A stretch of 27,850 nucleotides of DNA, taken from IMG/VR virus record IMGVR_UViG_3300033182_000188, positions 1-27,850 of that record; one strand, 5' to 3'. Shown piece by piece: positions 6,195 through 26,084 of this stretch. Origin of the DNA: a virus. Each line of letters begins with the position of its first letter. Within the stretch, counting starts at the first letter, position 1. The translations under genes and the position numbers were made by a program. The notes below the pieces were generated by a model. That model saw only the letters and a list, made by a program, of their open reading frames with translations. It made no database searches and had not been told where the DNA came from.

Positions 6195-6640
6195 TGAGTA
6201 CAATAGAAAAAAGCATTTACAAACAGATTAACGTTCCTAGTAATCAAAAATCACAATCAGTGCCAGGTAGTAAAGCCTATAGAGGAATCAGCACGGTAAA
6301 TCCTAACGCTACTAATACAACACTGTATGACATTGCATTAATCAAGCAAGATCTTATCAATCACTTTCATATTCGTCAAGGCGAAAAACTTTCGAACCCT
6401 GAATTTGGTACGATTATTTGGGACGCTATTTTTGAACCTTTAACACCAGCATTGAAAGATGCGATTGTGCAAAATGTTACAACAATAGTAAATTACGACC
6501 CTAGGGTAAGCGTTGACAACATAGTAGTAGATAGTTACGAAAGCGGTATACAGATAGAATGTACGTTAACTTACTTACCATATAATATTTCCGAAACTAT
6601 GCGTATGCAGTTTGACGAAAGTGCCGGGTTTTTATCGTAA
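6194..6640 (+). CDS. gp25: Baseplate wedge protein gp25
   Basis: This 148-residue member of the GPW/gp25 family is the wedge protein that contacts gp6 and gp53 and initiates the sheath around the baseplate. The family core is evident: LYDIALIKQDLINHFHIRQG (residues 44-63), then GEKLSNPEFGTIIWD and FEPLTPALKDAI, including the conserved Gly-Glu-x3-x-Pro-x-Phe-Gly pattern and the E-P pair at 81-82. A final beta strand pair includes IQIECTLTYLPYNISETM. The length fits the family (T4 gp25 is 132 residues), with about 40 extra N-terminal residues. ATG 6194 overlaps the spike stop codon by one base. Its AGGAG (6179-6183) is encoded by the C-terminal tag of the spike gene, so the pair is probably translationally coupled. 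Confidence 0.93.
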   Translation: MSTIEKSIYKQINVPSNQKSQSVPGSKAYRGISTVNPNATNTTLYDIALIKQDLINHFHIRQGEKLSNPEFGTIIWDAIFEPLTPALKDAIVQNVTTIVNYDPRVSVDNIVVDSYESGIQIECTLTYLPYNISETMRMQFDESAGFLS

Positions 6641-9600: not shown

Positions 9601-10148
9601 GCAGCGATAACTTATTCATTAGTTATTCTACCCAACTTAATAAGATTAAGTCACTTAGCGATGAAATCATCTATCATCCTGTTAAGTACAAAGCGTTATT
9701 TGGAAGTAAAGCGGAGTCAGATTTGCAAGCAAGATTTAAAGTAGTTAAAAATCCAGATTTGGTTATCAACGATAATCAACTTAAATCAGATATCATTAGT
9801 GCAGTGAATAGATTCTTTGCATTAGAAAACTGGGACTTTGGTGATAAGTTTTACTTCTCAGAATTAGCAAGTTATGTAATGAACGAATTAAGTCCAGATT
9901 TGGTAACATTTGTAATTGTTCCGGTTCAAGAAGATCAAACGTTTGGTTCGTTATACGAAATTAAATCAGAAGCAGATGAGATTTTTATCAGTTCTGCTGT
10001 TGTTAACGATATTGACATTATTGATGGTATTACAGCTTCAAGACTAAAAGCGTCAGGAGCAATAGTAACAGAATTAACTAGCAATAACACTGGCGTGCAA
10101 AGTAGTAGTACGTATTCTAGCTCAACAACTGGAGGCCTTAGTTACTAA
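6696..10148 (+). CDS. gp6: Baseplate wedge protein gp6 (enlarged)
   Basis: This 1,150-residue protein is the gp6-type wedge protein (baseplate J family) that forms the ring of dimers linking wedges around the hub. The N-terminus (MRENYPEDFNDYIESSEYLA-like, residues about 35-55, followed by LVDLIAFLGQNIAFRIDLNA and ENYLELAERRESVLRLARLL) is typical of gp6 in marine T4-like phages. The central part has the J-like core (about 330-470) with RISLIFSDGVFGNLPQGSFR and the NAPATYYTQNRMVTAEDYQ segment. Residues about 925-955 hold an NRIDPSASNIVDTYLLTRSYD-like block known from the family, shortened here. The protein is nearly twice the size of T4 gp6 (660 residues). A perfect EF-hand-like loop, DDDDDGVVDNPE, occurs at 812-823. 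The C-terminus is a Ser/Thr-rich tail whose Gly-Gly codons (GGAGG, 10131-10135) act as the ribosome-binding site for the next gene. Confidence 0.9.
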   Translation: MSSTDRQNRLLAAEDWKRVYQSFRNANFKSYDFDNLRRTMISYLRENYPEDFNDYIESSEYLALVDLIAFLGQNIAFRIDLNARENYLELAERRESVLRLARLLSYNPKRNQAANGLLKISAVSTTEEVYDSNNINLENQTVLWNDPSNSDWYEQFIRILNAGLPVNGTFGRPVKDETINGIPTEQYRFNSTNTDIPAYSFNKTVDGKSASFEVVSTDLTSDTIGEEAPFPGNNFAFVYRDDGRGPASSNTGFFCHFRQGTLDQGTFNVTNPSTNQVVAVDARNVNNSDVWLYKLDSLGNENELWTKVDAVEGNNIIYNSLNKNVRNIYSVLTRIEDRISLIFSDGVFGNLPQGSFRVYYRTSKNQRLIVTPDDMRGISVRIPYVSRAGKAETITLTLELKYTVDNSSVAESNTSIKQNAPATYYTQNRMVTAEDYQIGPLTISQEIVKAKSVNRTASGISRYFDLIDATGKYSKTNLFGVDGALYKEYLNLKTSFMFDTLTDIEGAIVNTIEPILKNIKVRNYYLDKFPQLLVEDLGAAWVQSSTATNLSTGYLINTNGITVKTGTYTGSNMKYVKVNSLLRFEPPTGYHFLNGELVPGQPDYRGGTAYHWVKVINVIDDGTKVQDDGTGPISFNDVIPTGARLVEIRTALPTTLTADVQAQVTDQIFAYKTFGLRYAQSQGEWRLVTENNLNIADPFSTGKTGDTTNQQLDASWLLLFNTDGEKYTLTYRAMRYVFESDAEIRFYYDSSDKIYNNRTGKIVKDKIKVLSINTQPDSVTPFTHDFDWEIVEEYRDAEGYIDSKKIQVSFYDDDDDGVVDNPEIFKDIVEETVNETDKVIFLQKIVSTDGVNDYVYVTKESLGIIVLDTKSNIGALSQYDDGQLFYYIDEDIFEQLDLTSSTLTIVTDYKARIGRDNLKFQYIHAADQNNRIDPSASNIVDTYLLTRSYDTEYRSWLDGSVNSKPLPPSSDNLFISYSTQLNKIKSLSDEIIYHPVKYKALFGSKAESDLQARFKVVKNPDLVINDNQLKSDIISAVNRFFALENWDFGDKFYFSELASYVMNELSPDLVTFVIVPVQEDQTFGSLYEIKSEADEIFISSAVVNDIDIIDGITASRLKASGAIVTELTSNNTGVQSSSTYSSSTTGGLSY

Positions 10149-13100
10149 TGGCAAACGAAAATAATCAATTTGAGTATCCGCCACCAATTGATGGTGACGA
10201 TAAGCGTCGCAGTGCTTACCATCTTCCTAAGTATTTTAGAACTCTAACAAACACGAAGTTTTTGTCTAGTACTTTGGATCAATTAATCCAGCCGGGTACC
10301 GCTGAAAAGTTAAATGGTTATTTTGGGCGTAAACAAGCAAAGGGTTATACTTCAGGTGATTTTTATATTGGTGACGTAAGCACGGATAGAGAAAATTATC
10401 AATTAGAACCTGCTGCTGTAATCCAAGACGAATTAGGAAACGTAAACTTTTATGGTGATTATACTGATTACATTAATCAAATCAGTAACCTTGAAGGCAA
10501 TGTATCTAATCATAGTCTTTTAAATAGGCAAGAATATTATGCGTGGAATCCGCATATTGATTGGGATAAGATTGTAAACTTTCGTGACTATTATTGGTTA
10601 CCTAGCGGACCTCAAACTGTTGGTGTTGCTGGACAAACAATTGAAGTAGAAAGCACATACACTGTTACAGAAGTAAACAACAACGACAATTATGGGTATG
10701 TTTTTACTCCAAATGGAGTAACACAGAACCCTAGTTTAACATTGTATAGAGGCATAACATATAAATTTGAAATTAATGCGCCTAATAATCCGTTATCATT
10801 TAGAACACGTAGAGAAAATGCCCCTATATGGAGAAGCACTAGAATATATGATCTAGGCGATTTAGTTACATATAATGGAACCATATATTCTGCTGTTGGG
10901 AAACATAAAGCAAGTGCAACTTTTGAAGAAGATTTAAGTTTTTGGGCTATAGATACTACCTTTAATCTTTCTACACAGGTTTCACAACAAGGCGTTTCAA
11001 AAGGAACAATTGAAGTTACACTAGATGCTGCAACTCCTGACATAATTTATTATGTGTCAGACGGTGACATTTATGCAGGTGGTATGATTAAGGTTAGAGA
11101 CATTGCTGAAGCAACCTTCATAGATGTTGAAAATGAAATCCTTAACAAGAAAACTTATACAACTAGCGCAGGCTTTGCATTATCAAACGGTATGAAGGTA
11201 GAGTTTACTGGCGAAGTTACTCCAACAAAATACGGTGAAGGTGCTTGGTATGTTGAAGGTGTAGGCAACAAGATTAAATTAATTTCTGAAGAAGAATTAA
11301 ATGTACCAAGTGCATTTACTCAAGATCTATTAGTAGAATTTGATAATGAAGGATTTGATAGACTTCCATACTCTGAAGCACTTGGTTATCCAATAAACAA
11401 AGATTACATTACTATCAATCGTGCAAGCCCAGACGGCAACCTCTGGTCAAAGTATAATCGTTGGTTCCATAAGAGTGTTATTGAACTAGCAGAACAAATT
11501 AATGGACAAGATCCAGAATTAGATCAAAGCCAACGTGCTACCCGTCCTATCATTGAATTTGAAGCAGGATTAAAACTGTTTAACTTTGGTACTAGCGTTA
11601 AGAGAAATGTTGACCTTGTAGACGACTTTACAACGGATGTCTTCAGCACAATTGAAGGTGCAGAAGGTTACAATGTAGACGGTATTGATTTAACTAATGG
11701 TATGCGTGTAGTATTTACAGCTGATACCGATCCATTAGTTAAAGGCAAGATTTACGAAGTACGCTTCATTGTACATAATAATATAAGACAAATTACATTA
11801 CAAGAAACTGACGATACAACTCCAAACGAAAACGAAACATTGCTGTGTAAGCAAGGTGAAACTTATACAGGTAAGATGTTTTGGTTTAATGGTGATACTT
11901 GGAAATTAGCACAAACTAAAACGTCAGTTAATCAGTCGCCATTATTTGATGTGTATGACTGTGAAGAAAACAGTTATGCAGATACTACAGTTTATGAATC
12001 ATCGACATTTACTGGAACCCACGTATTTTCATATGTAGAAGGATCAGGAGCAAACGATAGCGAGTTAGGATTTCCTTTAAGTTATAGAAGCATTGAGAAC
12101 GTTGGCGATATCTTATTCCATTTTGATTTATTAACAGATAGTTTAACCTATTGTCCATTTGCATCTAATCCAGAAGAAATGATTACTGGATCTGGTTATT
12201 TACGACGTTATACTTCTAGAACGGAATATAGTATTGTTAATGGCTGGGAAAAAGCAGATAATTTAAGTAATCAATCAGTGATACGACAGTTTGTTGTAGA
12301 TAACACAAGAACATTTTATCCTATTGATGTTTACGATAAGAGTGCTTCTTTAGACGACTTATGGGTACGAGTGTATCTTAATAATAAATTATTGTTTGAA
12401 AATGTTGATTACATACTTAGAAATGGACCAAAAAATCAAACAGTAGTTGAATTTACTAACAGCCTAAGTAAAGGTGATGTTATAGTTTTAAAAACACGCT
12501 CGTTAGCACCAAAGAATGAAAATGGTTTGTATGAAGTACCTGCTAGTTTAGAACGCAATCCTTTAAACAAAGATATTACAGAGTTTACATTAGGAGAAGT
12601 TAACGATCACGTTGGAACAATTATTGAAGAAGTTGATGAATTTAGCGGGTTGTTCCCAGGTACGAGCAATCTTCGCGATTTAGGACCAGTATCAAAATAC
12701 GGTAAGAGAATTGTAAAACATTCTGCACCATTAAATTTACCTTTCTATCATTTAGTTAATAAAGATGCTAATCTTGTTAAAGCATTAAAATATGCTCGTA
12801 GAGAATATGGCAAGTTTAAACGTTTGTTCTTACAAATAGCATATGACTTAGGATTTAGCGGTCCTGTTAAAGAACACGTAGATAAGATTCTTATCGAAAT
12901 GTTTAAAGATAAGACCAAGATTATGCCATTCTATTTTTCGGATATGGTTCCGTTTGGTGCTGCTGTTTATAATTCAATTGAAATAGAAGATCCTGATTCA
13001 ATTTATTTTGCATTAACTAGCGTGTTTGATATCAATACCGCTAGCGATAAGTCAGTAGAAATATATCAAAACGAAGTGCAATTATTGCACGGTAAAGATT

Positions 13101-16100
13101 ATACGTTTAACGATCAAGGTTTTGCGATAATAACTACAGAAAAGGCAATTGGTGATATTATTGAGATTTACGAATATGAAACTACTAATGGTAGTTTTGT
13201 TCCACCAACACCGACTAAGTTAGGATTGTATCCAAAGTACGAACCTAGCAAATTCATAGACGATACTTATTTAGAATCTCAGGAAGTAATACAAGGGCAC
13301 GATGGTAGTATTATTATTGCTTTTGGCGATTACAGAGACGATTTATTATTAGAATTAGAAAAACGTATCTATAATAATATTAAGGTAACATACGATCCTA
13401 ATTTGTTTGATATACACGATTTTGTATCCGGTATATACAGAACTAATGAAGGTTTAACCCGTAACCATATAGACGATTCTATGTTAAGTGATTTTGTACA
13501 ATGGGTACAATTAACTGACGAAGAATATACTGCTAATCCAACATACGATAGAGAAAATTCATTTACCTATAACCATTCAAATATGACAGGACCATTAGGT
13601 AATGCTATTTCAGGATATTGGAGATCAATATATCAAGAAGCATACGATACAGATCGCCCGCATACACATCCTTGGGAAATGTTAGGTTTTACTATTAAGC
13701 CAACTTGGTGGGATGAACAATACGGTGAAGCTCCTTATACAAGTAATAATTTAATATTGTGGGAAGACCTTGAAACAGGAACTATTAGAGATCCAAGCGG
13801 GTTACCAAGTATTAATAGCAAATATGCTCGTCCAGGATTAACTAGTCATATACCTGTTGATGATGATGGAAATTTGCTAAGTCCGATTGAAAGTAATTAT
13901 GTTAAGACTTTTGAAACAACATCATTAAATGCTGATTTTAAATACGGTGATTGGTCTCCTGTTGAAACTGCGTGGCGTAGAAGTTCTGAGTATCCTTTTG
14001 CGTTACTAACATCAATATTTTTAAATCAGCCAACTAGATCAATAGCAACCGGCTTTGATAGATTGCGTCAAAAGAGAGGACTTGTTGGAGATATAATTTA
14101 CAATTCTCCAAATAGACAAGTTCGTTTAGAAGATTTACAATTTCCTAATAGTGTTAATGCGTCAGAAAGAACATATACATCTGGATTTGTAAATTACATT
14201 TATGATTATCTTGCTTCAAACGTTGATGCAACATACAGTTCATATATAGAAAATTTGCAAGCGATTAATAACCAAATTGGTTTTAAACTTGCAGGTTTCA
14301 CGTCTAAGGATAAGTTTAAATTAATTCTTGACAGTCGTACTCCTTCCAACGAAGGTAATGTTTTTGTTCCAGAAGAGAACTATAAGATTTTCTTAAACAA
14401 GAGTGTGCCTGTAGAAAACGTGTATTACAGCGGTGTTATTATCGAAAAACAAGCACAAAGGTTTATTGTTAGAGGTTATAATAATGATCAACCTTATTTT
14501 ACATATTATCCGCCATTGAATATTGCTAGTGATCCTTTAATCAACGTAGGTGGTATAAGTGAAAATTTTGTATATTGGAATTCAGAAAAACTATACACAA
14601 GGGGTATGATAGTTGATTATGAAAACACATACTATAGAGCTACAGAAACTCATACTAGTGGAACACAATTTGATGGAACTAAGTTTACCAAACTTCCTGC
14701 ACTACCATTAGTTGGCGGACACGAAGCATATTTCCATAAGAGATTTAGTAAAAAATCTGTCACAATCCCTTACGGTACGGTTTTAGATTCTATCCAAGAT
14801 GTTGTTGATTTCCTATTAGGTTATGGACATTATCTAGAATCTCAAGGATTTGTATTTGATTATCGCATAACTGAAGATAAATTAGTATCTGATTGGAAAA
14901 CATCAGCTAGAGAATTTATGTTCTGGACAACACAGAACTGGGAAGCAGGTGCCGTTATATCGTTGAGCCCAGGTGCGTTCCAACTTAAATTTAAATCGCA
15001 ATATGCAATCGTAGACGATATTTACGATACATTTTATGGTTATAAATTATTGAAAGCAGATGGTAAGAAACTTTTACCTGAGTTTGTTTCCTTAACGAGA
15101 GAGAATCCTCAGGAATTTGTTATCCGTACTAAAATAACGGAAGATGGCATCTATGCTGTTAGACTATCGTTAGTGCAAAAAGAACACGTTGTACTAATAG
15201 ATAATACAACAGTGTTTGGTGATGTTATATTTGACCAAGAACCGGGTTATAGACAAGAGCGTATTCGTGTGTTAGGTTATAGAACTACTGACTGGGACGG
15301 CTCTATTAATATCCCTGGTTTTATATTTGACGATGCTAAAATTACAGAATGGCAACCTTGGCAGGACTATGCAATTGGAGATTTGGTCAAGTATAAAGAA
15401 TTTTATTATTCAGCACGAAATAAGATTTCTGGAACAGAGGTATTTGATGCTAACGAATGGGTACGTTTAACAGATAAACCTGAAATGGGTCTAATACCTA
15501 ACTTTGAATACAAGATCAATCAGTTTGCTGATTTTTATGATTTAGATACTGATAACTTTGACGTTGACCAGCAAAAGTTTGCACAACATTTGATTGGCTA
15601 TCAAAATAGAAAATACCTAGCAAATATTATTAACGACGATGTTTCGCAATATAAATTCTATCAAGGTATGATACAAGATAAGGGCACACGCAACGCTCTT
15701 GATAAATTGTTTGATGTATTAAGTTCAGCAGATAAAGATAGTTTAGATTTTTATGAAGAATGGGCAATTAAGGTAGGTCAATACGGCGCAGCAGACGGTT
15801 TTGAAGAAGTTGAATATATTTTAGACGAATCTAAGATGCGTTTAACACCTCAAAGTTTTGAGTTAGTTAATAGTATCACAGGCGACGAAACTGATTTAGT
15901 TTATAGAATACGTCCGTACGAAACATATTTGAGACCTGCAGATTACGATCACGCTCCGTTCCCTGCAACAACTGTCGGTACAACATACACTAAGAACAGC
16001 GGATACGTAAATCCTGAGAATGTTGACTTCATACTTTCAACGTATGATTCTATCTTAAATGTTGATTTCTTAAATTGTGATTTTGGGAATACTTTATGGG

Positions 16101-19100
16101 TAGGCAATGACGGATTAGAATGGAATGTTTATACTCACGTTAGAACAGATTTAGACATTGAAGAATTTCTTGCTATAGACGGTGGTGCAGCACTAATATT
16201 GACTTCAACACCAGACTATTTAATTGCCGGAGAAATTATAGGTGTTTATAATGTAACTAATTTTAATAATGGTTTTTATAAGATTTCTAAGGTATCAGGA
16301 AATAGAATAGAAATTGAATCTAGTGTAATTGGCCTATCAGATGAAAGTAATGCACAAGGTAGAATTACTCGCTTTGTAGATAACAGAGTTAGTAATGTTA
16401 CTGTAGCAAATACACTATTACAAACAGTCGAAGAAGGAATAGATCGTATTTGGATCGATGACACTGGTACTGGTCAATGGTCGGTATTAGATAATACTGG
16501 AAGATTTGCAGAACATCAGGTTATAACAAACACCGATCCTGGTATAGATCACAACTACGGCGAAGCATTAGCAACTGATAGTAAGAACACCGTTCTTGCT
16601 GTTGGTGCTCCTGACAACGGGGACGGTAAAGTCTTCATTTACACTAGAGCAGGAAACAGTGGCTCTTATCAATTAGTGCAAGAAATTGAACCTGAATCAG
16701 GTCTTGCTGCTGATTTAGAACGCTTCGGCGCAAGCATTGCTATATCACCTGATGGTAAATTCTTAGCAATAGGTTCTCCTAACGCATCAAACGTAAAAAC
16801 TTCGTACAAAGGAAATTGGGATCCTGCAACTGATTATGCTATTAATGAAGTAGTAAGATATCAAGACGCACTATGGAAAGCAGTAGAGGTTGTTGAAGGT
16901 GAAGAAGACAATATCATTTTTGATAGTTATGAGTCTGTAGCACAGATCGTAGTAGATCTTAACCTAGATGATAGTGATGATGAGCAAGTACCTGTTATTT
17001 TAACAGGTAATTATCCGTTTACAAATATTACAACGGATCATATCTTGCTAAGAGCTCCTAAAAATATGTACGAAGGTACAGAAGTAGATGATTTAGTACA
17101 GGTTAAATGGAACACCTTATCTTATGCATATCAAACACAGGATACTCCTACAGAAACCGAACCGTTCATAGGCGCAATATCCGAACTTAGCAGTTCATTC
17201 TTCACAGGAAATCTTACAATTAAGGATAAGATTGATGCTGTATTATTTGTACAAGAAACAAATACTATTCCTTTAGTTGGACAGATTGTAGAAGTTGCTG
17301 GCGGATTTGGTACTGTTGCTTATACATACAATCCATCAGACGAAAGTACCGTAACAGCAGCAACAACAATTTATGTTAAGGATATTAATGGTACATTTGG
17401 TCTACAAGGCTCATTGACTACAAGCATTGGTGAATACGTTGGTGAATATGTAACTTCGGCACCTACTGATACTTCTGTTGGCCTTGAAGATAGATTTGGT
17501 GGTTATTGGTTGATTCCTACTAACGCTGCATACGAAGTTGGAACAGATACTGCTGACGAAGGTAGAGGTTTAGTATATAAAGACATCATTACTGAAGTAA
17601 GTGATGATAGCACAGATAGATATTATCATAACATTTTAGATTATGCTACAACAGTAGTATCTAGTTATGATACTAGAAATAGTCAACTTACTACATTAAC
17701 ATATGACGGACAACCTTATCTAGTAACAGATAACTACCCTGATTCAAGATTTGTTATCAGAGCACCTAAGTCATTAACGGATAATTTAACCTTTGGCGAT
17801 AAGTTTAGATTATTTTATAACCCTCTTCCAGTATACGAAGACGGGGAGTGGCAAACAGATACAAATTACTCAACTGGACAAATACTAAAATATGTAAATG
17901 ATTTGTTTACTAATATCTATTGGCGTGTTAAAAAGGATCATACAAGCGACAATGAAAGTTTCTTAATCCTTAATACAGCAACGGTTGATGTAGACGATGA
18001 TTACACATATGATAGCGAATATTACGAACCAATAGATGAACTTCCTTGGAATAACCCTTCTGAGATTGGTATACCTATTACAACATTAAATCAAGAACAC
18101 GAAGTTAGTGACTTATGGGACGGTTATATTGATGTATATCTAACAGAGCCTGACCCGTACGATGCGACTAACTATGTTGAACCAAAGGTAGGATTAACTG
18201 TACAGGATAAGACTAACTTAGGAACGGCAGAAATTGTTTATTATCAACGCTTTGATACGTTTAATACTAGAATCTATGTTAAAGGTGTTAGCGGTACTTG
18301 GGCTGCGGGTAATTTATTTGGTGAAAACAGAGAAATTGAATTTGTCGGAGTCCCTTCAGATCCAAACATCTTGTATAGAACTACTAGAGTATTTGGTCAG
18401 ATTCAATCGCGTAGTTTAGGTCTTGCTAGTGAAGATATTGGCAAACTGATCGTTGTTGATACAGGATCAAACATTCCGTTAACAAAACCGGCGGACGCTG
18501 CTGCAACAGACGAATATTATACTATTTTAAATCACGAATATTGGTTATACGATATTGCTGACGTATATGGTATTAGACGCGAACCAAGCGCACCAAGTGA
18601 AAATAACAATGACTGGACACAGGTATATAAAGTTTCAGCTAGTGCAATAGGTGAAGCAAGCCTATATGAAAATCAAGGTATGTTCCACATTTATGAAAGA
18701 CGTGGAACAGGACAGTTTATTAAAGTAGATTCTTATCTAGTACCTGAAATTAATGATTACAAAGCAAGAGGTAATTTAGAAAATCTTGGTGACGATTTTT
18801 ATCTAGGATCAGATTTAAAGTTTGCAAAATCTGGAGATTTTTATAGATTATTTGTTAAAGCAACAGGTGCCGGAACACAAGATAGTCCAGGCAGAATTTA
18901 TGTGCTTAAGAATGGCGTTGAGAACGGTTATACTTATTCTTGGGAATTAGGCAAGGATAAGGAATACAAAGGAGAATTTTCTGAAACAAGAAACTACTTT
19001 GAAAATGATATTGTTTATCTTGACAACCAACTATACCAAGCATTAACAAATACATCTGCAGGTGCTTTTGATGAAGATGACTGGTCGTTAATTGACGGGG

Positions 19101-22100
19101 TTAGATCGTACCTTGGATATGTACCAAATGATACTGGATTAAATGCTGCTGGCGACAGTGTTGGCATACTGGTTCACGATAGTTCTCGTTTAGTTGATCT
19201 AGATAGTAGCATTATTGAACAAAGTAATCTAACACAATTTGCAAAAGACTTTGATGTTAGTGGTAACGGTGAAGTATTAATAGTATCAACAGTATACGAT
19301 CAAATTAAAAATGATAGATTAGCAATCTATAGAAACTACAACGGACATTATGAGCTGGCACAAACTATTGATGCTCCGTCCAACGATATTGAATATGGTA
19401 TAAGTGTGTCTATCAGCAATGATGGTACGATGATAGTTGTTGGTGCTCCTGAAGACGATTCTGTGAAACTTAATCACGGTAAAGTATTTGTTTATAGACA
19501 GATTAATCAACGTTTTGAGTTAGTCCAAGAGTTGACTTGCGCAGAAAAACAAAGAACAGAGTTATTTGGATTTAGAGTAGAATGTGATGGCAATAGATTA
19601 GCAGTTGCGTCTAAGAACGGTGATGCCTTTACCGAAACTAGTTTTGATGATAACGAAACAACATTTGATAGAGAGTTTACAAAGTTTAGAGCATACAATA
19701 GAAATTCAGGAACGGTACACGTTTATCAAAGAATAAACGATAATTTACTATTTGGACAAATTGTTGATTTTGACGATGAAGACGTAAGATTCTTTGGAAG
19801 AAATCTTGTACTCAGCAACAATCACATTTATGCAGGGCTACCAAAATTATATTATAGTGCAACTAGACAAGGAACTATAGTTGATTATAGGATTCCTGAT
19901 AATACAACTATATGGAGCGTGTTGAATTCTGCGAAACAAACAGTTGATGTTAACAAGATCAAACGTGTAATGTTGTATGATACTAAGACTACAGAACTAG
20001 TACAATATTTAGACTACATTGATGTATTGCAAGGTAAAATTGCAGGACCTGCAGAACAGGAATTAACATATAAAACTTATTACGATCCAGCAACATATAC
20101 TACTGGTATTAATGTAAATGTTGACGAAACAAATAGTTGGGATAATCGCCAAATAGGACAGTTATGGTGGGATCTAACTAATGCTAAATTTATAAATCCT
20201 TATCAAGGTAATGTAATTTTTAGTGCTAACAACTGGAATAAACAGTTTGCAAATATTAATACTATTGATATTTACGAATGGGTTGAATCAAAATATTTGC
20301 CATCAGAATGGGATAAGTTAAGCGGAACAGAAAATGGTATAAATCAAGGTATTACAGGAACCACTAAGTACGGTGACGAAGCATATGTTACTAAGCGTGT
20401 GTATGATTCTGTTTCAGGTACGTTTACTACATATTTTTACTATTGGGTTAGAAATAAAACAACAATACCTAACATTGAGGACAGAACTCTTTCGGCTAAG
20501 GATGTAGCAGACCTAATCATAGATCCTGCAGGGCAGGGATATAGGTTTATGTCATTTATTAGTCCAACAGAGTTTGCTTTATATAACTGCGAACCTATTA
20601 TTAGAGGTGATGATATAGCACTAAGTATTCAATACTGGACTATTGATAATCAAGAAATTAACATACATAATCGATATCAAATATTGACTGAAGGTTTAGA
20701 TTCTAGCAAACCGAGCAGAGATATTGAAGCAAAATGGTTTGATAGTCTAGTTGGATTTGATAGTGCAAACCGTCAAGTACCTGCTCCAGAATTAAGTCCT
20801 AAGGAACGTTATGGAGTCTTAAACAGACCTCGCCAGGGCTGGTTCGTTAATAGAGCAGAAGCATTAAAACAGGTAGTTGATAGAGTTAACGGTGTTTTAG
20901 CTAATACTTTGTTAATTGACGACAAAGATATTACTGCACTAGTACAAAGAGATGAGCCGCCATTATTGTCAAGCAATAGATACGATAGAACAGTTGATAC
21001 ATTAATTGAGTTACAGTTTGTAGGTGTTGCCAAAGCAAGACAAGCACAATTAACTCCTGTTGTTGAGAATGGAAAAATAATTCGTGTTGATATTAATGAT
21101 GTAGGTAGAGGTTACTTAAGAGCTCCTACAGTAACAATTATTGGCACAGGACAAGATGCGGTTATAACAACAGAAATTGATAATAACGGCAGTATCACTA
21201 ATGTTACTATTGAAAATGCAGGCGAATACTATACATCTAGTACACGTTTAAGCGTTCGTAGATATACAGTTCTTGTAGAATCTGATGAAACATTGAATGG
21301 TAAATGGGCGTTATATGAAAGAGACACGGACGCCAAGGAATGGATAAGAGTTGAGAGCCAAGCATATGATGTAAGTTTGTATTGGAACTACATTGATTGG
21401 TATGCAACTGGTTACAGTGCGTTTACAGAAATTGACCATTTAATAGATAATTCATACGATTTAGATTCGTTAAATGATACCGTTGGTGATATTGTTAAGA
21501 TTAAAACTGTAGGCACTGGTGGCTGGTTGTTACTAGAAAAGATTGCCGAACAGGAAAACACAGATTATTCTGTAAATTATCAAACTGTTGGTAGAGAAAA
21601 TGGAACTATTAAATTTAAGAGTACGCTTTACGATACAGTTGAAAGTTTAGTTGGTTACGATGTAACTAGTTTTGACGCATTAACATTTGATAACTTACCG
21701 TCAAGCGAAACACGTATTATCTTAGAAACTTTACGTGATGATATTTTAGTAGATGAATTAGCAGTAGAATATAACAAATTATTCTTTGCAAGTTTACGTT
21801 ATGTATTTGCAGAACAAGGATATGTTGACTGGGCATTTAAGACCTCGTTTGTTAAGGCACAACATAATGTTGGTGAGCTTACACAACACGTAAATTTCCA
21901 AAATGATAATTTACCTAACTACGAAGATTATATTAAGGAAGTTAAGCCTTATAAAACTAAGATTCGTGAGTATCTAAGTTCGTATGATAAGATCGATAAC
22001 TCGCAATCAATGGTATCTGATTTTGATTTACCTGCACGCTATGTAAGCACAGAAGAAGGAATACAGCCACAAGTAGTTAAAGTAATTGATAGTGAAATAG

Positions 22101-25100
22101 TAAATCAAAGTGCAGAGTTAGATTCGTATCCTAACAAAAATTGGGCAGATAATTTAGGCTTTAAGGTATTAAGAATAGAATTAGCAGATGCAGGCTCTGG
22201 ATATACTAATGCTCCTGTGATTAAAATTACAGGAAGTGGAACAGGTGCAACTGCTACAGCATCGCTTGGCCACGGCGGCCAATTAAGTGCTATAAACATC
22301 GTAAGCCAAGGTAGCGGGTATTTAAGTGCACCTACTGTTGAGATAAACGGCAATGTTGCAGAAGGCGGCAGAGAGGCAAAAGCAGTAGCAATTATTGGCG
22401 ATAGTCCTGTAAGATCTATGCATACTATTGTTAAGTTTGATAGAGTGTCAGGTGTTTATGAATTTGTTTCGCTCGATACAACTGAAACATTTGCAACGAC
22501 CGGCAATAAGATAAAATTTGACCTAGAATGGCCAATGGATTTACGAACTACTCGAGTAGCAGTTTATCTAAACAATGACGAAGTTCTAGGAGGCCAATAC
22601 ACTTACAGCAATCTATTAGATACTTCTAAAGGATACGATCGTTATCAAGGACAGATACTGTTCGTTGATCCTCCGGTTGCTGGACAAGAGTTGCGTGTAG
22701 AATACTATAAAGACATTAATATGTTGAAGGCACAGGATCGTATCAATTTAGCATACGAACCAACTGCTGATCAATTTGGTAAAACGTTAGGCCAGTTAAT
22801 GGACGGCGTTGATTACGGTGGCGTAGAAGTTAGGTCATTTGAGTTTGGTGGTACTACAGGATGGGATTCTAATCCTTGGTTCACTCAAGGATGGGATATC
22901 TATGATACAACATTTGAAGATGAGATATTTAAACTAGATGGTTCTACTGTTAGCATTGAACTTAGCAATCCGTTGGCAGATGGTATTGAGTATAACATTT
23001 ACAGATTAGGTTATGATTCTAGTAATATTCTTGTACGCAACGAAAGAATGGATGATCCAGAATGGGATGGTTCTACTATAGGTACAGAATCTAATCCAGC
23101 AGCAAGAATGTTGCCAATAACAGGCGATGGAGAAACTACTACAATATTCTTAGATGAATTAGGTATACCAACAACTGTAAATACTGATGAAGATCTAGTG
23201 GTAATAATTGTTCGTAAGTCAACATCAGATGGTTCGTTCTTACCAGACCCAGATAGCTACGACACGCAATTATCTGGAGGCGACATAGCATATTCAACTG
23301 CTACTGGTTTATCGGCGGCAGATATTAATATTGATGGCGACGGATTTGTAACACCAACTACATCAAAAGGACCTGAAGAAGTTGTTCCTGGGCAAGTACT
23401 TGATACTGTAGATATTACAGTTTATGAACGACCAATAGGTGGAACAAGCGAGATAATATCAAGAAATTATTACGGAGACGGAGTAACCAAAGTATTTAAT
23501 ATAGGTACTATTCCAGTTAAGGCAGAAAACTTATTCGTTAAGATAGGATACACTAATCTAACAACTGATGATTATACAATAGATTATGCAACAGGTCAGA
23601 TAACATTTGATACTGCGCCTGCTAGTAATGCTAGAATTAGTCTAATAACTTTAGGAAATTCTGCTGCAAACATCTTAGATATTGATGTATTTGAAGGTGA
23701 TGGAGCAACTGTAGAATTCTTAACTAATGCTCGTTGGGAAGATGATGCTGATGCGTTTGTTACTGTCGATGGCGTGGCTACCGAAGTAACTTTGATCAGA
23801 TCTGATGATAGTTACGATTATCCTAACAATTTTATTGTAAAAACACCTACTCCTCCTAAAGACGGTGCTAGAATTAGTGTAATGTTAACCGCAGGCGGCG
23901 AAACTAATGTTGAATATAGTCAAGTTAGCATTGATACATTTGTTGCAGATGGTAGTACTACACAGTTTAATTTTGCAGATTCAACTGGACCAATAGCACA
24001 AGCACCGTTGCAATTCTATACAGTAGTTAAGGTTAATGATACGGTATTAGATGCAGGATACAGCCAGCAATTTATTATAACAGGAAGCCAGAGAGAGTAC
24101 CAACTTGATTTAGCACAGATTCCTATAGCAAGTCTAAACTATTATGATTTAGAAGTTTATCTAAACGATAGAAAGTTAGAATACTTACAAGAGTGGACGT
24201 TTGAAGGTGCTGGCAGTTTTGATTCTAGTCTAGCATCGGACTCGCAGCCAGGAAGCACTGTAACACTTGAAAGAGGTATTGCAACAGCAGGCGATGAACT
24301 TAAGATATTTGTTATGTCTAGCGGAGAATACAGATTTGGTTACTATACAGACGATAATAATTTTGTAGATACTCCTGCAACGATTTATTTTGATAATTCG
24401 TATAACGATAACGATGTGATAACAGTTTATCAATTTAGCAACCACGACACGCAAGGCATAGAGCGTTATACCGTAGAAGTAACTGAAAAAACAGAATTAA
24501 CACCTGGTACTAACAAGTATTACGAATTTAGGATGTTACAGAAAGGAATGGTTGCGTTACGCATACCTGCAAGAAATGCAGAATATGTTTGGATTTCTGT
24601 AAACGGAAACTTGCTATCTCCAAGCATTGACTACAGTCTAACTTCTAATAGACGCTATGTTAAATTAGCAGAACAACCTGCAGAAGGCGACAAAATACAA
24701 GTAATACATTTTGCAGATCAAATTGTTACTGACAAATTTGGTTGGAGACAGTTTAAAGATATGCTCAATAGAACACACTACAAGCGTCTAGATGATGTAT
24801 ATACACTAGCAGAAGATTTAAACTGGTACGATAAAAGTATTGAAGTAGTAGATGCTACAGGCTTACCAGAACCTGAATATGATGCTAAGTATCCTGGTGT
24901 AATATTCTTAGATGGAGAGCGTATTGAATTCTTTAACAGAACTGGTAATACATTAAATCAAATACGTAGAGGTACATTAGGAACGGGCGTTAAGGCAGTG
25001 TATGATGCAGGTACACAATTTATTGAACAAGGTGTAGATACAAATATGCCTTACAGAGACGAAACTGAAACAATTACTGTAACAGCAGATGGTACAACAT

Positions 25101-25447
25101 CTACATTTGAATTGCCGTTCGATGAAACTTTATTAAACAAGCGTTTTGGTTCTGCAAAGGATTTAATAGAAGTATTTGTAGGCGGTAGACGTTTACGCAA
25201 AGACGATGTTGAAGTATATAATAACGAGATTGCACAGGATTCAACTGACGGTGACGAAACTCACACAGCAGAATTTAGTGTAAGTGGAAGTACCTTAACG
25301 TTAACTGATGCTCCTGACATAGGTGTAAAAGTTAGCATTATTAGAAAATTAGGTAAACCTTGGACTGATATAGGAGTTCCACTATCTCAAGCAGATAGTG
25401 ATATAGCAAGATTCTTACGTGATAAGACAACGGATTTACCACGATAA
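10148..25447 (+). CDS. Giant 5,099-residue baseplate/tail structural protein (gp7 position)
   Basis: One unbroken reading frame of 15.3 kb, with no internal stop or frameshift. It overlaps the gp6 stop by one base. The N-terminus (KRRSAYHLPKYFRTLTNTKF, then a QLEPAAVIQDELGNVNFYGD-type block) resembles large structural proteins that follow gp6 in marine T4-like phages, so an N-terminal wedge role like T4 gp7 (1,032 residues) is likely. Domains visible in order are: a cupredoxin-like fold (about 180-316) split by a W-Y-GD-V-Y module; fibre-like sandwiches (about 714-790 and 960-1020); wedge-like helical regions with HTHPWEMLGFTIKPTWWDEQ near 1170; an FG-GAP beta-propeller (2130-3250) with a large insertion; two GSGY repeat domains (3640-3700, 4005-4070); and a C-terminal chain of beta sandwiches ending in SDIARFLRDKTTDLP. 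It has no signal peptide, transmembrane segment or enzyme motif. It probably replaces T4 gp7 to gp11 functionally, which is inference. Confidence 0.85.
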   Translation: MANENNQFEYPPPIDGDDKRRSAYHLPKYFRTLTNTKFLSSTLDQLIQPGTAEKLNGYFGRKQAKGYTSGDFYIGDVSTDRENYQLEPAAVIQDELGNVNFYGDYTDYINQISNLEGNVSNHSLLNRQEYYAWNPHIDWDKIVNFRDYYWLPSGPQTVGVAGQTIEVESTYTVTEVNNNDNYGYVFTPNGVTQNPSLTLYRGITYKFEINAPNNPLSFRTRRENAPIWRSTRIYDLGDLVTYNGTIYSAVGKHKASATFEEDLSFWAIDTTFNLSTQVSQQGVSKGTIEVTLDAATPDIIYYVSDGDIYAGGMIKVRDIAEATFIDVENEILNKKTYTTSAGFALSNGMKVEFTGEVTPTKYGEGAWYVEGVGNKIKLISEEELNVPSAFTQDLLVEFDNEGFDRLPYSEALGYPINKDYITINRASPDGNLWSKYNRWFHKSVIELAEQINGQDPELDQSQRATRPIIEFEAGLKLFNFGTSVKRNVDLVDDFTTDVFSTIEGAEGYNVDGIDLTNGMRVVFTADTDPLVKGKIYEVRFIVHNNIRQITLQETDDTTPNENETLLCKQGETYTGKMFWFNGDTWKLAQTKTSVNQSPLFDVYDCEENSYADTTVYESSTFTGTHVFSYVEGSGANDSELGFPLSYRSIENVGDILFHFDLLTDSLTYCPFASNPEEMITGSGYLRRYTSRTEYSIVNGWEKADNLSNQSVIRQFVVDNTRTFYPIDVYDKSASLDDLWVRVYLNNKLLFENVDYILRNGPKNQTVVEFTNSLSKGDVIVLKTRSLAPKNENGLYEVPASLERNPLNKDITEFTLGEVNDHVGTIIEEVDEFSGLFPGTSNLRDLGPVSKYGKRIVKHSAPLNLPFYHLVNKDANLVKALKYARREYGKFKRLFLQIAYDLGFSGPVKEHVDKILIEMFKDKTKIMPFYFSDMVPFGAAVYNSIEIEDPDSIYFALTSVFDINTASDKSVEIYQNEVQLLHGKDYTFNDQGFAIITTEKAIGDIIEIYEYETTNGSFVPPTPTKLGLYPKYEPSKFIDDTYLESQEVIQGHDGSIIIAFGDYRDDLLLELEKRIYNNIKVTYDPNLFDIHDFVSGIYRTNEGLTRNHIDDSMLSDFVQWVQLTDEEYTANPTYDRENSFTYNHSNMTGPLGNAISGYWRSIYQEAYDTDRPHTHPWEMLGFTIKPTWWDEQYGEAPYTSNNLILWEDLETGTIRDPSGLPSINSKYARPGLTSHIPVDDDGNLLSPIESNYVKTFETTSLNADFKYGDWSPVETAWRRSSEYPFALLTSIFLNQPTRSIATGFDRLRQKRGLVGDIIYNSPNRQVRLEDLQFPNSVNASERTYTSGFVNYIYDYLASNVDATYSSYIENLQAINNQIGFKLAGFTSKDKFKLILDSRTPSNEGNVFVPEENYKIFLNKSVPVENVYYSGVIIEKQAQRFIVRGYNNDQPYFTYYPPLNIASDPLINVGGISENFVYWNSEKLYTRGMIVDYENTYYRATETHTSGTQFDGTKFTKLPALPLVGGHEAYFHKRFSKKSVTIPYGTVLDSIQDVVDFLLGYGHYLESQGFVFDYRITEDKLVSDWKTSAREFMFWTTQNWEAGAVISLSPGAFQLKFKSQYAIVDDIYDTFYGYKLLKADGKKLLPEFVSLTRENPQEFVIRTKITEDGIYAVRLSLVQKEHVVLIDNTTVFGDVIFDQEPGYRQERIRVLGYRTTDWDGSINIPGFIFDDAKITEWQPWQDYAIGDLVKYKEFYYSARNKISGTEVFDANEWVRLTDKPEMGLIPNFEYKINQFADFYDLDTDNFDVDQQKFAQHLIGYQNRKYLANIINDDVSQYKFYQGMIQDKGTRNALDKLFDVLSSADKDSLDFYEEWAIKVGQYGAADGFEEVEYILDESKMRLTPQSFELVNSITGDETDLVYRIRPYETYLRPADYDHAPFPATTVGTTYTKNSGYVNPENVDFILSTYDSILNVDFLNCDFGNTLWVGNDGLEWNVYTHVRTDLDIEEFLAIDGGAALILTSTPDYLIAGEIIGVYNVTNFNNGFYKISKVSGNRIEIESSVIGLSDESNAQGRITRFVDNRVSNVTVANTLLQTVEEGIDRIWIDDTGTGQWSVLDNTGRFAEHQVITNTDPGIDHNYGEALATDSKNTVLAVGAPDNGDGKVFIYTRAGNSGSYQLVQEIEPESGLAADLERFGASIAISPDGKFLAIGSPNASNVKTSYKGNWDPATDYAINEVVRYQDALWKAVEVVEGEEDNIIFDSYESVAQIVVDLNLDDSDDEQVPVILTGNYPFTNITTDHILLRAPKNMYEGTEVDDLVQVKWNTLSYAYQTQDTPTETEPFIGAISELSSSFFTGNLTIKDKIDAVLFVQETNTIPLVGQIVEVAGGFGTVAYTYNPSDESTVTAATTIYVKDINGTFGLQGSLTTSIGEYVGEYVTSAPTDTSVGLEDRFGGYWLIPTNAAYEVGTDTADEGRGLVYKDIITEVSDDSTDRYYHNILDYATTVVSSYDTRNSQLTTLTYDGQPYLVTDNYPDSRFVIRAPKSLTDNLTFGDKFRLFYNPLPVYEDGEWQTDTNYSTGQILKYVNDLFTNIYWRVKKDHTSDNESFLILNTATVDVDDDYTYDSEYYEPIDELPWNNPSEIGIPITTLNQEHEVSDLWDGYIDVYLTEPDPYDATNYVEPKVGLTVQDKTNLGTAEIVYYQRFDTFNTRIYVKGVSGTWAAGNLFGENREIEFVGVPSDPNILYRTTRVFGQIQSRSLGLASEDIGKLIVVDTGSNIPLTKPADAAATDEYYTILNHEYWLYDIADVYGIRREPSAPSENNNDWTQVYKVSASAIGEASLYENQGMFHIYERRGTGQFIKVDSYLVPEINDYKARGNLENLGDDFYLGSDLKFAKSGDFYRLFVKATGAGTQDSPGRIYVLKNGVENGYTYSWELGKDKEYKGEFSETRNYFENDIVYLDNQLYQALTNTSAGAFDEDDWSLIDGVRSYLGYVPNDTGLNAAGDSVGILVHDSSRLVDLDSSIIEQSNLTQFAKDFDVSGNGEVLIVSTVYDQIKNDRLAIYRNYNGHYELAQTIDAPSNDIEYGISVSISNDGTMIVVGAPEDDSVKLNHGKVFVYRQINQRFELVQELTCAEKQRTELFGFRVECDGNRLAVASKNGDAFTETSFDDNETTFDREFTKFRAYNRNSGTVHVYQRINDNLLFGQIVDFDDEDVRFFGRNLVLSNNHIYAGLPKLYYSATRQGTIVDYRIPDNTTIWSVLNSAKQTVDVNKIKRVMLYDTKTTELVQYLDYIDVLQGKIAGPAEQELTYKTYYDPATYTTGINVNVDETNSWDNRQIGQLWWDLTNAKFINPYQGNVIFSANNWNKQFANINTIDIYEWVESKYLPSEWDKLSGTENGINQGITGTTKYGDEAYVTKRVYDSVSGTFTTYFYYWVRNKTTIPNIEDRTLSAKDVADLIIDPAGQGYRFMSFISPTEFALYNCEPIIRGDDIALSIQYWTIDNQEINIHNRYQILTEGLDSSKPSRDIEAKWFDSLVGFDSANRQVPAPELSPKERYGVLNRPRQGWFVNRAEALKQVVDRVNGVLANTLLIDDKDITALVQRDEPPLLSSNRYDRTVDTLIELQFVGVAKARQAQLTPVVENGKIIRVDINDVGRGYLRAPTVTIIGTGQDAVITTEIDNNGSITNVTIENAGEYYTSSTRLSVRRYTVLVESDETLNGKWALYERDTDAKEWIRVESQAYDVSLYWNYIDWYATGYSAFTEIDHLIDNSYDLDSLNDTVGDIVKIKTVGTGGWLLLEKIAEQENTDYSVNYQTVGRENGTIKFKSTLYDTVESLVGYDVTSFDALTFDNLPSSETRIILETLRDDILVDELAVEYNKLFFASLRYVFAEQGYVDWAFKTSFVKAQHNVGELTQHVNFQNDNLPNYEDYIKEVKPYKTKIREYLSSYDKIDNSQSMVSDFDLPARYVSTEEGIQPQVVKVIDSEIVNQSAELDSYPNKNWADNLGFKVLRIELADAGSGYTNAPVIKITGSGTGATATASLGHGGQLSAINIVSQGSGYLSAPTVEINGNVAEGGREAKAVAIIGDSPVRSMHTIVKFDRVSGVYEFVSLDTTETFATTGNKIKFDLEWPMDLRTTRVAVYLNNDEVLGGQYTYSNLLDTSKGYDRYQGQILFVDPPVAGQELRVEYYKDINMLKAQDRINLAYEPTADQFGKTLGQLMDGVDYGGVEVRSFEFGGTTGWDSNPWFTQGWDIYDTTFEDEIFKLDGSTVSIELSNPLADGIEYNIYRLGYDSSNILVRNERMDDPEWDGSTIGTESNPAARMLPITGDGETTTIFLDELGIPTTVNTDEDLVVIIVRKSTSDGSFLPDPDSYDTQLSGGDIAYSTATGLSAADINIDGDGFVTPTTSKGPEEVVPGQVLDTVDITVYERPIGGTSEIISRNYYGDGVTKVFNIGTIPVKAENLFVKIGYTNLTTDDYTIDYATGQITFDTAPASNARISLITLGNSAANILDIDVFEGDGATVEFLTNARWEDDADAFVTVDGVATEVTLIRSDDSYDYPNNFIVKTPTPPKDGARISVMLTAGGETNVEYSQVSIDTFVADGSTTQFNFADSTGPIAQAPLQFYTVVKVNDTVLDAGYSQQFIITGSQREYQLDLAQIPIASLNYYDLEVYLNDRKLEYLQEWTFEGAGSFDSSLASDSQPGSTVTLERGIATAGDELKIFVMSSGEYRFGYYTDDNNFVDTPATIYFDNSYNDNDVITVYQFSNHDTQGIERYTVEVTEKTELTPGTNKYYEFRMLQKGMVALRIPARNAEYVWISVNGNLLSPSIDYSLTSNRRYVKLAEQPAEGDKIQVIHFADQIVTDKFGWRQFKDMLNRTHYKRLDDVYTLAEDLNWYDKSIEVVDATGLPEPEYDAKYPGVIFLDGERIEFFNRTGNTLNQIRRGTLGTGVKAVYDAGTQFIEQGVDTNMPYRDETETITVTADGTTSTFELPFDETLLNKRFGSAKDLIEVFVGGRRLRKDDVEVYNNEIAQDSTDGDETHTAEFSVSGSTLTLTDAPDIGVKVSIIRKLGKPWTDIGVPLSQADSDIARFLRDKTTDLPR
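10685..11095 (+). other. Domain: cupredoxin-like fold interrupted by a binding module
   Basis: Within the giant protein, residues 180-220 carry the first half of a cupredoxin-like pattern: NPSLTLYRGITYKFEIN at 194-210, then NNPLSFRT at 213-220 where the family usually has a His-Pro-Phe. Residues 286-316 carry the second half, GTIEVTL...PDIIYYVSDGDIYAGGMIKV, where a metal-binding relative would have Tyr-x-Cys-x2-His-x2-Met-x-Gly. The Cys and both His are absent (Asn, Ser and Asp or nearby residues instead) and only the Met remains, so it should not bind copper. A W-Y-GD-V-Y module (226-266) sits between the halves. Confidence 0.5.
10823..19102 (+). repeat. Six dispersed W-x5-Y-x2-(G)D-x-V-x-Y carbohydrate-binding-like modules
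   Basis: Six divergent copies of a module of about 40 residues occur in the giant protein, starting near residues 226 (WRSTRIYDLGDLVTYNGTIY), 1476 (WNSEKLYTRGMIVDYENTYY), 1735 (WQPWQDYAIGDLVKYKEFYY), 2224 (WDPATDYAINEVVRYQDALW), 2568 (WQTDTNYSTGQILKYVNDLF) and 2942 (FSETRNYFENDIVYLDNQLY). Nucleotide starts are near 10823, 14573, 15344, 16811, 17843 and 18971. The Trp/Tyr/Gly-Asp/Val/Tyr spacing matches the small chitin- or cellulose-binding (CBM5/12-like) folds that phages use in tail proteins. Sugar binding is an inference. Most copies end in an acidic, Phe-containing turn followed by a W or F strand. Confidence 0.6.
16535..19897 (+). other. Domain: FG-GAP-type beta-propeller, seven apparent blades, with a large insertion
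   Basis: Within the giant protein I count seven blade-like units of the form (F/Y)G-x-(S/A)-hydrophobic-strand-(D/N)G-x3-(A/V)(V/I)G(A/S)P-...-G-x-(V)-(F/H)-(I/V)Y-strand. The blades begin near residues 2137 (A), 2186 (B), 2880 (C), 3028 (D), 3081 (E), 3138 (F) and 3212 (G). Examples are VLAVGAP with GKVFIYTR in A, FLAIGSP in B, and MIVVGAPEDD with GKVFVYRQ in E. Blade B breaks off after GSPNAS (2212-2214) and its missing strand, GMFHIYERRGTGQFIKVDSY, reappears at 2844. FG-GAP propellers are integrin-like ligand-binding platforms. Confidence 0.6.
16790..18667 (+). other. Domain insertion of about 625 residues inside propeller blade B
   Basis: Residues about 2215-2840 separate the two halves of one propeller blade. 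The insert contains W-Y-GD-V-Y modules at both ends of its first half (2224 and 2568). Between them lie beta-rich units such as PFTNITTDHILLRAPKN and RFVIRAPKSL, two copies of an F-x-I/L-RAPK motif (near 2300 and 2538). A further segment near 2650-2740 (YIDVYLTEPDPYDATNYVEP, IYVKGVSGTW) looks like another sandwich. No catalytic motif is seen. Confidence 0.5.
21065..21243 (+). repeat. GSGY-type beta repeat domain, copy 1
   Basis: Residues about 3640-3699 of the giant protein show two turns of a repeat of the form G-x-I-x-x-V-x-I-x-x-(V/A)-G-x-(G/Y)-Y-x-x-(A/S)-P-x-V-x-I-x-G: first GRGYLRAPTVTIIGTGQDA, then GSITNVTIENAGEYYTSST. This 'GxGYxxAPxVxIxG' unit is common in phage and marine bacterial surface proteins and gives a small beta domain. 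A second pair is found about 365 residues further on. Confidence 0.55.
22160..22357 (+). repeat. GSGY-type beta repeat domain, copy 2
   Basis: Residues about 4005-4070 of the giant protein carry GSGYTNAPVIKITGSGTGA and then GQLSAINIVSQGSGYLSAPT, two well-preserved turns of the same repeat as at 21065-21243. The spacing between the GSGY motifs (about 37 residues) matches between copies. The domain is likely a structural spacer or ligand surface; no function is shown by the sequence. Confidence 0.6.
23420..25444 (+). other. C-terminal chain of fibre-type beta-sandwich modules
   Basis: Residues about 4425-5099 of the giant protein are built from units of the form DG-x-T-x-x-F-...-V-x-V-(D/N)G-x3-...-DY-...-(I/L)-x-(L/F)-x3-P-x3-(A/D)-x-(I/V)-x-(V/I). 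Openings are near 4444 (GDGVTKVFNIG), 4515 (GDGATVEFLTN), 4599 (ADGSTTQFNF) and 4979 (ADGTTSTFELPF). A different insert near 4895-4960 contains YPGVIFLDGERIEFF and IRRGTLGTG, a module I know from structural proteins of marine T4-like phages. The protein ends SQADSDIARFLRDKTTDLP, a C-terminal motif recurrent in such fibre or baseplate proteins. Similar units occur near the N-terminus (about 714-790). Confidence 0.55.
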
Positions 25448-25469: not shown

Positions 25470-26084
25470 ATGGCAGACAATTTTAATGATCTAAACGGTG
25501 TATTGCTACAAGGGCATATCAAAATACACGATCCTAACTCAGGTGAAGTATTAATTGATAAGCGCAATGCTATACATTACGAAAATATGAGTATATCTCT
25601 AGCAGAGAGTATTGGTAATGGCGGTACTGGATGGATATATGAGATGAGTTTTGGTAACGGTGGCACATCTGTTGACCCTACCGGAATTATCACATATCTA
25701 ACTCCAAACAGCACTGGTACAAATGCTAGTTTATACAACGAAACTTATTCAAAGGTAATTGACGATAGAAGCGTTAATAACTTAGACCCAATACGTAACA
25801 AGATCGAAACACGTCACGTTAGTGGTACTAACTACACTGATATTGTTATTACTTGTTTATTAGATTATGGCGAACCAAGTGGACAAGATGCATTTGACAA
25901 TGCTACTGATGAAAATAGTTCGTATATCTTTGATGAGTTAGGATTAAGAGCATATTCAAGCACAGGTACAGGACGTCTGCTTACACACGTTATCTTCCAT
26001 CCTGTACAAAAGAGCTTGAATAGACTTATACAGATTGATTATACCGTTAGGGTACAATCGTTGTCAGGTTTTAACGAGGTGTAA
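25470..26084 (+). CDS. Conserved virion structural protein (204 residues)
   Basis: This protein starts with LNGVLLQGHIKIHDPNSGEV (residues 8-27), then RNAIHYENMSISLAES and a Gly-rich stretch MSFGNGGTSVDPTGIITYL. The body is beta-rich (TDIVITCLLDYGEPSG) and ends with VIFHPVQKSLNRLIQIDYTV. It has no signal peptide or membrane segment. I recognise it as a type of small structural protein that sits between the big baseplate protein and the fibre gene in marine T4-like phages, but no T4 counterpart is evident. Its place suggests a connector between baseplate and fibre, which is inference. ATG 25470 has AGGA upstream. Confidence 0.75.
   Translation: MADNFNDLNGVLLQGHIKIHDPNSGEVLIDKRNAIHYENMSISLAESIGNGGTGWIYEMSFGNGGTSVDPTGIITYLTPNSTGTNASLYNETYSKVIDDRSVNNLDPIRNKIETRHVSGTNYTDIVITCLLDYGEPSGQDAFDNATDENSSYIFDELGLRAYSSTGTGRLLTHVIFHPVQKSLNRLIQIDYTVRVQSLSGFNEV

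Follow-up and report, generated by a model that had tools for sequence, protein, structure and literature searches.

What does a single gene of 15.3 kb do in the place where phage T4 carries genes 7 to 11? The question is raised by a virus fragment of 27,850 bases recovered from a metagenome (IMG/VR record IMGVR_UViG_3300033182_000188, analyzed over its whole length and called the window here), for which a first-pass annotation had described one frame of 5,099 codons running from gp6 to the fibre-side genes and had suggested that wedge, outer baseplate and part of the receptor-facing apparatus were fused in it. The frame proved to be exactly as described: it lies at positions 10148..25447 on the plus strand (+), the strand of every window feature written below in the form start..end, begins with ATG and has no internal stop; the length quoted for T4 gp7 (1,032 aa) was also confirmed. 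The product would be a protein of 5,099 aa and 575 kDa with a calculated pI of 4.5.

The gene order in the window is a phrog_12050 protein, gp53, a phrog_11190 protein, a gp5-like hub, gp25, gp6, the giant, a phrog_11259 protein and a collar-domain fibre gene, the last being interrupted by the window end. Upstream of the giant, PHROG profiles of the baseplate wedge identified genes for gp53, gp25 and gp6: the gp25-like wedge gene (6194..6640) matched phrog_261 (E 3.5e-21), and the gp6-like baseplate wedge gene (6696..10148, 1,150 aa) matched both phrog_10646 (E 1.4e-297) and phrog_219 (E 5.6e-22). The protein encoded directly downstream of the giant (25470..26084, 204 aa) was assigned to phrog_11259 by its PHROG profile. 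No Pfam Tail_P2_I domain was found in the window record. The ATG of the giant (10148-10150) shares a base with the TAA of the gp6-like gene (10146-10148), giving TAATG, and a GGAGG is found at 10131-10135, 12 bases ahead of the ATG; judged by its sequence, this start (10131..10150) is arranged for translational coupling to gp6.

As the window is a metagenomic fragment of 27.85 kb, its long frame might be an assembly artefact or a chimera. We scanned IMG/VR with residues 1016-1912 of the giant and obtained at least 599 stretches, every one encoding relatives, 80 of which were fetched. The gene was complete in 33 of these 80 close loci and formed a single frame of 4,951-5,234 aa in 32 of them, the exception (L040) being a frame that ends 9 bases short of the contig end. 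In the 32 independent relatives the gene is present from end to end, and its product is 45-72% identical to the window giant across 4,828-5,064 aligned residues, which already refutes an artefact or chimera; its probability is virtually nil and it was dropped. When the window giant was compared with three relatives, pN/pS was about 0.2-0.5 in every bin of 500 codons, with the maximum in the region of aa 2001-3500 and, in one comparison, also in the last short bin. By this measure the giant is under purifying selection over its full length, weakest in the insertion between core blocks K and H described below.

The protein matched phrog_10938, a PHROG model of 3,324 positions annotated as "virion structural protein", with E-values of 6.9e-261 for its first half and 9.7e-77 for its second half, and all sequences of our family alignments A2 and A3 matched the same model. 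A tblastn search with the first 1,333 residues returned at least 60 isolate-phage records, the matches including Agrobacterium phage Atu_ph07, Sinorhizobium phage Phosso, the PA5oct group, RaK2/K64-1, 121Q/PBECO4, CBB, GAP32, Vibrio phage 2.275, Salicola phage SCTP-2, XacN1 and others. The family is visible at the protein level only, since blastn of the gene against phages gave no match; an IMG/VR scan with the core of the Vibrio 2.275 protein likewise matched no stretch. In Atu_ph07, PA5oct, RaK2, 121Q, CBB, Vibrio 2.275 and Phosso the homologue is a single ORF of 3,323-4,555 aa directly after gp6, and the same adjacency was found in nearly all of 79 distant IMG/VR loci. The giant stands away from gp6 in three loci, namely SCTP-2, L185 and L205. 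The gene that precedes it in SCTP-2 (L005:10606-19896) is not gp6 but codes for a 3,096-aa protein that combines WD40 propellers with a VWA domain.

Peptides of homologues have been detected in virions by mass spectrometry: CBB_236 in CBB (21 unique peptides, 7.72% coverage; PMC5259590) and gp245 in phAPEC6 (381.88 kDa, 17 unique peptides, 7.6%; PMC7247149); moreover, the record of PA5oct gp355 bears an ESI-MS/MS note. It is through these homologues, and not through its own phage, that the window giant is presumed to be a virion protein. It is homologous to RaK2 ORF070, 121Q gp582, CBB_236, PA5oct gp355 and Atu_ph07 AUZ94962 in the N-terminal region, aa 314-1912 and aa 3255-3970, and like most isolate phrog_10938 proteins it is a single ORF right after gp6; however, it is longer than they are (5,099 against 3,323-4,555 aa), because more sequence is inserted between blocks K and H and because its C-terminus, for the most part unrelated to theirs, is extended.

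Comparison with the isolate homologues showed conservation in four regions, aa 1-180, 314-935 (11087..12952), 1012-1912 (13181..15883) and 3255-3970; the second is mostly beta with a helical end and is shared with jumbo-phage homologues, and the third is the best conserved stretch of the protein in the family comparison. For block mapping we used four markers, N (aa 1-180, 10148..10687), K (aa 1740-1930, 15365..15937), H (aa 3255-3600, 19910..20947) and H2 (aa 3701-3970, 21248..22057), and in a second, distant IMG/VR scan the order N<K<H<H2 was never broken in 130-160 proteins. The spacing between them varies widely, from 1,377 to 2,709 residues for N to K, 369 to 2,534 for K to H (aa 2031-3254 in the window giant, 16238..19909) and 289 to 637 for H to H2, and family members range from 2,434 aa (L185) to over 5,867 aa (L262, cut by the contig end). 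About 2,240 aa make up the common core with its four blocks, and as read from these alignments size varies through insertions between the four ordered blocks. Beyond H2 lies a variable C-terminal region (aa 3971-5099, 22058..25444), fibre-like by inspection, in which only aa ~4846-4948 are recognizable in an isolate phage (the PA5oct group).

Several binding and repeat modules are set among these blocks. A CBM_5_12 module at aa 228-257 (10829..10918) was over the Pfam cut-off (E 3.4e-6), a CBM_5_12-like module at aa ~1477-1506 (14576..14665) reached 21.7 bits, below cut-off, and another weak copy was detected by Pfam near aa 2223; Foldseek matched the copy near aa 1480 to chitin-binding domains. 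PDB searches with the single sequence and with the profile gave weak matches, the meaningful ones being chitin-binding domains of chitin-active enzymes. The AF2 model of aa 1-1000 (pLDDT 85.5) matched rusticyanin in Foldseek and its PDB list was dominated by multicopper oxidases, that is, by a cupredoxin-like domain, whereas its viral neighbours were of the same family; the full-length PDB alignments had TM below 0.2 and were rejected as homology. In this model the first CBM_5_12 is apparently inserted in a cupredoxin-like (YHYH-type) domain at aa ~150-320 (10595-11107).

Two FG-GAP_2 units were identified by Pfam, one at aa 2190-2218 (16715..16801), which repeats with aa 3077-3169, and one at aa 3082-3116 (19391..19495; E 1.5e-7, over cut-off). 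The units repeat one another from either side of an insertion, an arrangement of sequence that suggests a propeller interrupted by it. Gly-Gly-Tyr-type beta repeats occur at aa 3643-3703 (21074..21256), of a kind common to cyanophage slot proteins, and at aa 4006-4066 (22163..22345), the latter matching phrog_460. The last ~1,130 residues gave no Pfam match over cut-off. The module mosaic noted in the first-pass annotation is thus confirmed in part: a binding module is present and an interrupted propeller is suggested, but the "fibre sandwiches" also named there have no Pfam match over cut-off.

Relatives in which the same region is split by stops had been named beforehand as evidence that would speak against a single fused gene, and four such splits dissolved on inspection. 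Those in L196 and L260 are one-base deletions with respect to the 99%-identical open frames of L195 and L261, and were taken as sequencing errors. The split in K64-1 (L102:3574-13551, NC_027399) is an annotation error, the region being a single open frame of 3,326 aa; the RefSeq annotation of this phage displays many small ORFs and one of 4.1 kb. In Salmonella phage SD-1_S14 (L101:3584-13531) three overlapping ORFs point to sequencing indels, and the region shares 98.9% identity with 121Q with nine gap openings. L185 and L191 are of another kind. Their giants, of 2,434 aa (on a contig of 516,805 bases) and 2,503 aa, share 43% identity; in both, the frame stops soon after block H, which is the final core block, and a new gene overlaps or touches the stop. 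In L185 this gene (L185:13071-15302) encodes 744 aa with Ig-repeat (He_PIG) and glycine-rich sequence, and a downstream fragment in L191 (L191:13257-13676) is homologous to it. Separation after block H is therefore real in these two lineages, while the other splits were indels or mis-annotation, and the refuting case named beforehand thus applies in part. Since in both a separate gene follows block H, block H2 and the C-terminal part are separable from the core, which favors a scaffold with an exchangeable periphery over a set of joined T4 genes.

To examine the T4 comparison directly, profiles of gp6 to gp11 were built from T4, RB49, AS-yj, K491, F86, Xman and LPCS28 and compared with the whole-family profile in overlapping segments. 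No significant match to gp6, gp7, gp8, gp9, gp10 or gp11 was obtained in the giant, the top one being T4 gp10 272-392 against aa ~4625-4769 with a probability of 43%. In T4 each tail holds 6 copies of gp7, 12 of gp8 and 18 each of gp9, gp10 and gp11 (PMC3004832); a single chain replacing them one for one would need repeats to provide the 6:12:18:18:18 ratio, and tiled self-comparison of the giant revealed no internal repeat longer than 120 aa and no threefold repeat, which makes such a replacement unlikely. Six giants would weigh 3.45 MDa and all T4 gp7-gp11 3.35 MDa (computed from the table in PMC3004832), a similarity that would fit a fusion; nevertheless, family members span 2,434 to over 5,867 aa, more than twofold, so that the agreement is a coincidence and was dropped as an argument.

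The idea that gp7 had truly been fused to gp8-gp11 of the outer baseplate could also draw on the Pfam models for gp8, gp9/10-N, gp11 and gp7 domain V, none of which scored over cut-off in seven jumbo genomes of isolates carrying the giant or in four large IMG/VR contigs, a result that speaks as well for a functional replacement. Used as controls, T4 was positive and cyanophage ACG-2014d was positive for gp8 and gp9/10-N, but gp7-V and gp11 missed ACG-2014d as well, so the absence of these two means little. Furthermore, cyanophage genomes with a giant in the same slot also carry gp8 and gp9/10-type genes of their own, and a giant in this slot does not by itself imply fusion of genes 7 to 11. 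Even with the 43% match to gp10 on its side, we consider a true fusion very unlikely, given the lack of a significant gp8, gp9, gp10 or gp11 match and the T4 stoichiometry. As far as profiles can tell, no fusion of T4 genes 7 to 11 is visible in the giant; this part of the first-pass annotation is not supported, whereas one very large virion-type protein does fill the slot after gp6.

The cyanophage genomes offer the closest parallel. Single ORFs directly after gp25-gp6 encode 3,884 aa in S-CAM9, 6,817 aa in ACG-2014d and 8,573 aa in P-RSM6, and these giants contain a gp7 core, hhalign giving a probability of 82% for T4 gp7 727-760 and of 96% for the gene of 316 aa located after gp6 in phage C48C1; T4 gp7 itself matched phrog_2885 (E 1.3e-4) and phrog_26741 (E 1.7e-5). 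The window giant resembles these slot proteins (phrog_701, phrog_2885) in being a giant ORF after gp25-gp6, in its Gly-Gly-Tyr repeats and in similar modular growth. It differs in that they have a recognizable gp7 core, whereas it has no significant full-domain match to them, and in that ACG-2014d and P-RSM6 retain separate gp8 and gp9/10-type genes.

Two details of these genomes were observed in passing. In P-RSM6 (L104:8908-34629, 8,573 codons after gp6) and ACG-2014d (L103:2307-22760, 6,817 codons) the gp7-core pieces lie at about 700 and 3,570, some 2,800 residues apart, and gp7 appears from the sequence to have been opened by insertions. The 316-aa protein of C48C1 (L100:5638-6588) is a minimal gp7 (hhalign 67% to T4 gp7 649-760), and its annotation as "head closure Hc2" looks wrong.

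With T4 gp7 (phrog_964; Pfam Gp7_helical, Gp7_5th, Gp7_6th) the window giant shares the slot after gp6 and, possibly, an LP and a KGT motif in the same order, although it is five times longer and has no significant profile or fold match. The LP motif, aa 26-27 in block N, found its best alignment, below significance, at the N-terminus of the small proteins of gp7 type. The KGT motif (aa 1833-1866, FYQGMIQDKGTRNALDKLF, 15644..15745) had the KGT motif of the cyanophage gp7 core as its top, non-significant alignment; in the cyanophage profile of 6,817 positions the region falls exactly on the motif of the gp7 core, with a probability of 27% in one test and 2% with another alignment. When 137 targets were ranked, gp7-type sequences came 3rd to 8th with the N-terminus and 1st, 3rd, 5th, 6th and 7th with the KGT region; every score was low, and gp7s of the T4 type stood low in the ranking. 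No Pfam gp7 domain and no profile match to T4 gp7 was significant in the giant, PF21427 was not over cut-off in the relatives, and Foldseek of aa 1-1000 (pLDDT 85.5) and aa 1480-1960 (pLDDT 68, a model too poor at KGT to judge gp7) returned no gp7 in the PDB list. We regard LP and KGT as a faint echo of gp7, below significance and a lead instead of a proof of membership; with the slot after gp6 and the order of the two motifs, a gp7 role is plausible.

Our preferred reading, to which we give a probability of roughly 55%, is that the giant is a structural protein of the baseplate which probably occupies the position of gp7 in every wedge, in six copies, and has grown by module insertion. From the slot, from what is known of T4 (PMC3004832) and from the types of module we infer the wedge position, the gp7 role, the copy number and the binding of a surface. 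An intact ORF with a coupled start, the phrog_10938 match with at least 60 isolate records, the gp25/gp6 adjacency in seven isolates and nearly all 79 distant loci, the fixed block order with variable K-to-H spacing, purifying selection over the full length and the virion data for CBB, phAPEC6 and PA5oct all agree with a place in the wedge. The gp7 role is further favored by the gp7 core of the same-slot cyanophage giants, by LP and KGT in the same order, and by the failure to find gp7, gp8, gp9/10 and gp11 Pfam models elsewhere in these genomes. Against a place in the wedge stand the lack of a significant T4 gp7 profile match or of gp7 in the Foldseek PDB list, and the position of the giant away from gp6 in SCTP-2, L185 and L205.

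These same objections, together with the binding modules and the variable beta-rich C-terminus, could be explained if the giant were a peripheral adhesion or fibre-type protein on the baseplate, outside the wedge core, the slot being inherited gene order and another, unrecognized protein doing the gp7 job. We hold this to be possible though rather unlikely, as strong conservation and a scarcity of repeats in much of the core set it apart from a fibre, the start overlaps gp6 with an adjacency held over very large distances, and the motifs are in gp7 order. Length and modularity, as well as the two lineages with a shorter form and a separate gene after block H, would also suit a polyprotein that is cleaved in the course of assembly to yield several baseplate proteins; we identified neither a protease nor a recurrent cleavage motif, and processing of homologues was not reported in the literature searched, which leaves this very improbable. 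A bolder version of the preferred reading, in which one giant chain per wedge, having grown out of a gp7-type core as modules were inserted, does the work of the entire outer baseplate of T4 (bridge of gp7, socket for fibres and surface-binding rim), so that six polypeptides make up a periphery that would otherwise take dozens, seems doubtful to us.

If the giant does occupy the gp7 place, it would be translated together with gp6 and assemble beside it as the wedge bridge, six copies per tail, with blocks N, K, H and H2 as a scaffold that links the ring of gp6 with the periphery. The interchangeable modules between and after the blocks (CBM5/12, FG-GAP propeller, Gly-Gly-Tyr repeats and the beta-rich C-terminus) may face the host surface or seat fibres, and the gene would owe its length to modules that entered a wedge protein and to additions at the C-terminus, and not to a joining of T4 genes 7-11. 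As a wedge protein it would mean that the baseplates of many jumbo and marine phages follow a plan other than that of T4, with their outer parts linked covalently to the wedge.

The giant is a member of a catalogued, uncharacterized family of giant virion proteins and not a novel family; the single-gene state has been visible in isolate genomes since RaK2, and larger single genes are known in the same slot. The family is widespread, comprises virion proteins of 2,400 to over 5,800 residues, and is annotated in function only as "virion structural protein", an assignment beyond which the open-licence literature searched did not go for phrog_10938. That literature seems not to describe the order of blocks throughout the family, its modular variation in size or the lineages with a naturally short form, and the ordered blocks with the two short lineages provide a direct way to separate scaffold from adaptable periphery.

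Finally, two adjacent and apparently unrelated proteins of the window, the phrog_11190 protein (1358-4045) and the gp5-like hub protein (4047-6194), have a common C-terminal tag, ...K(V/E)WDDNLGDYI, which is confined to the closest relatives and was also found at L010:811-2976 and L011:3-1127.
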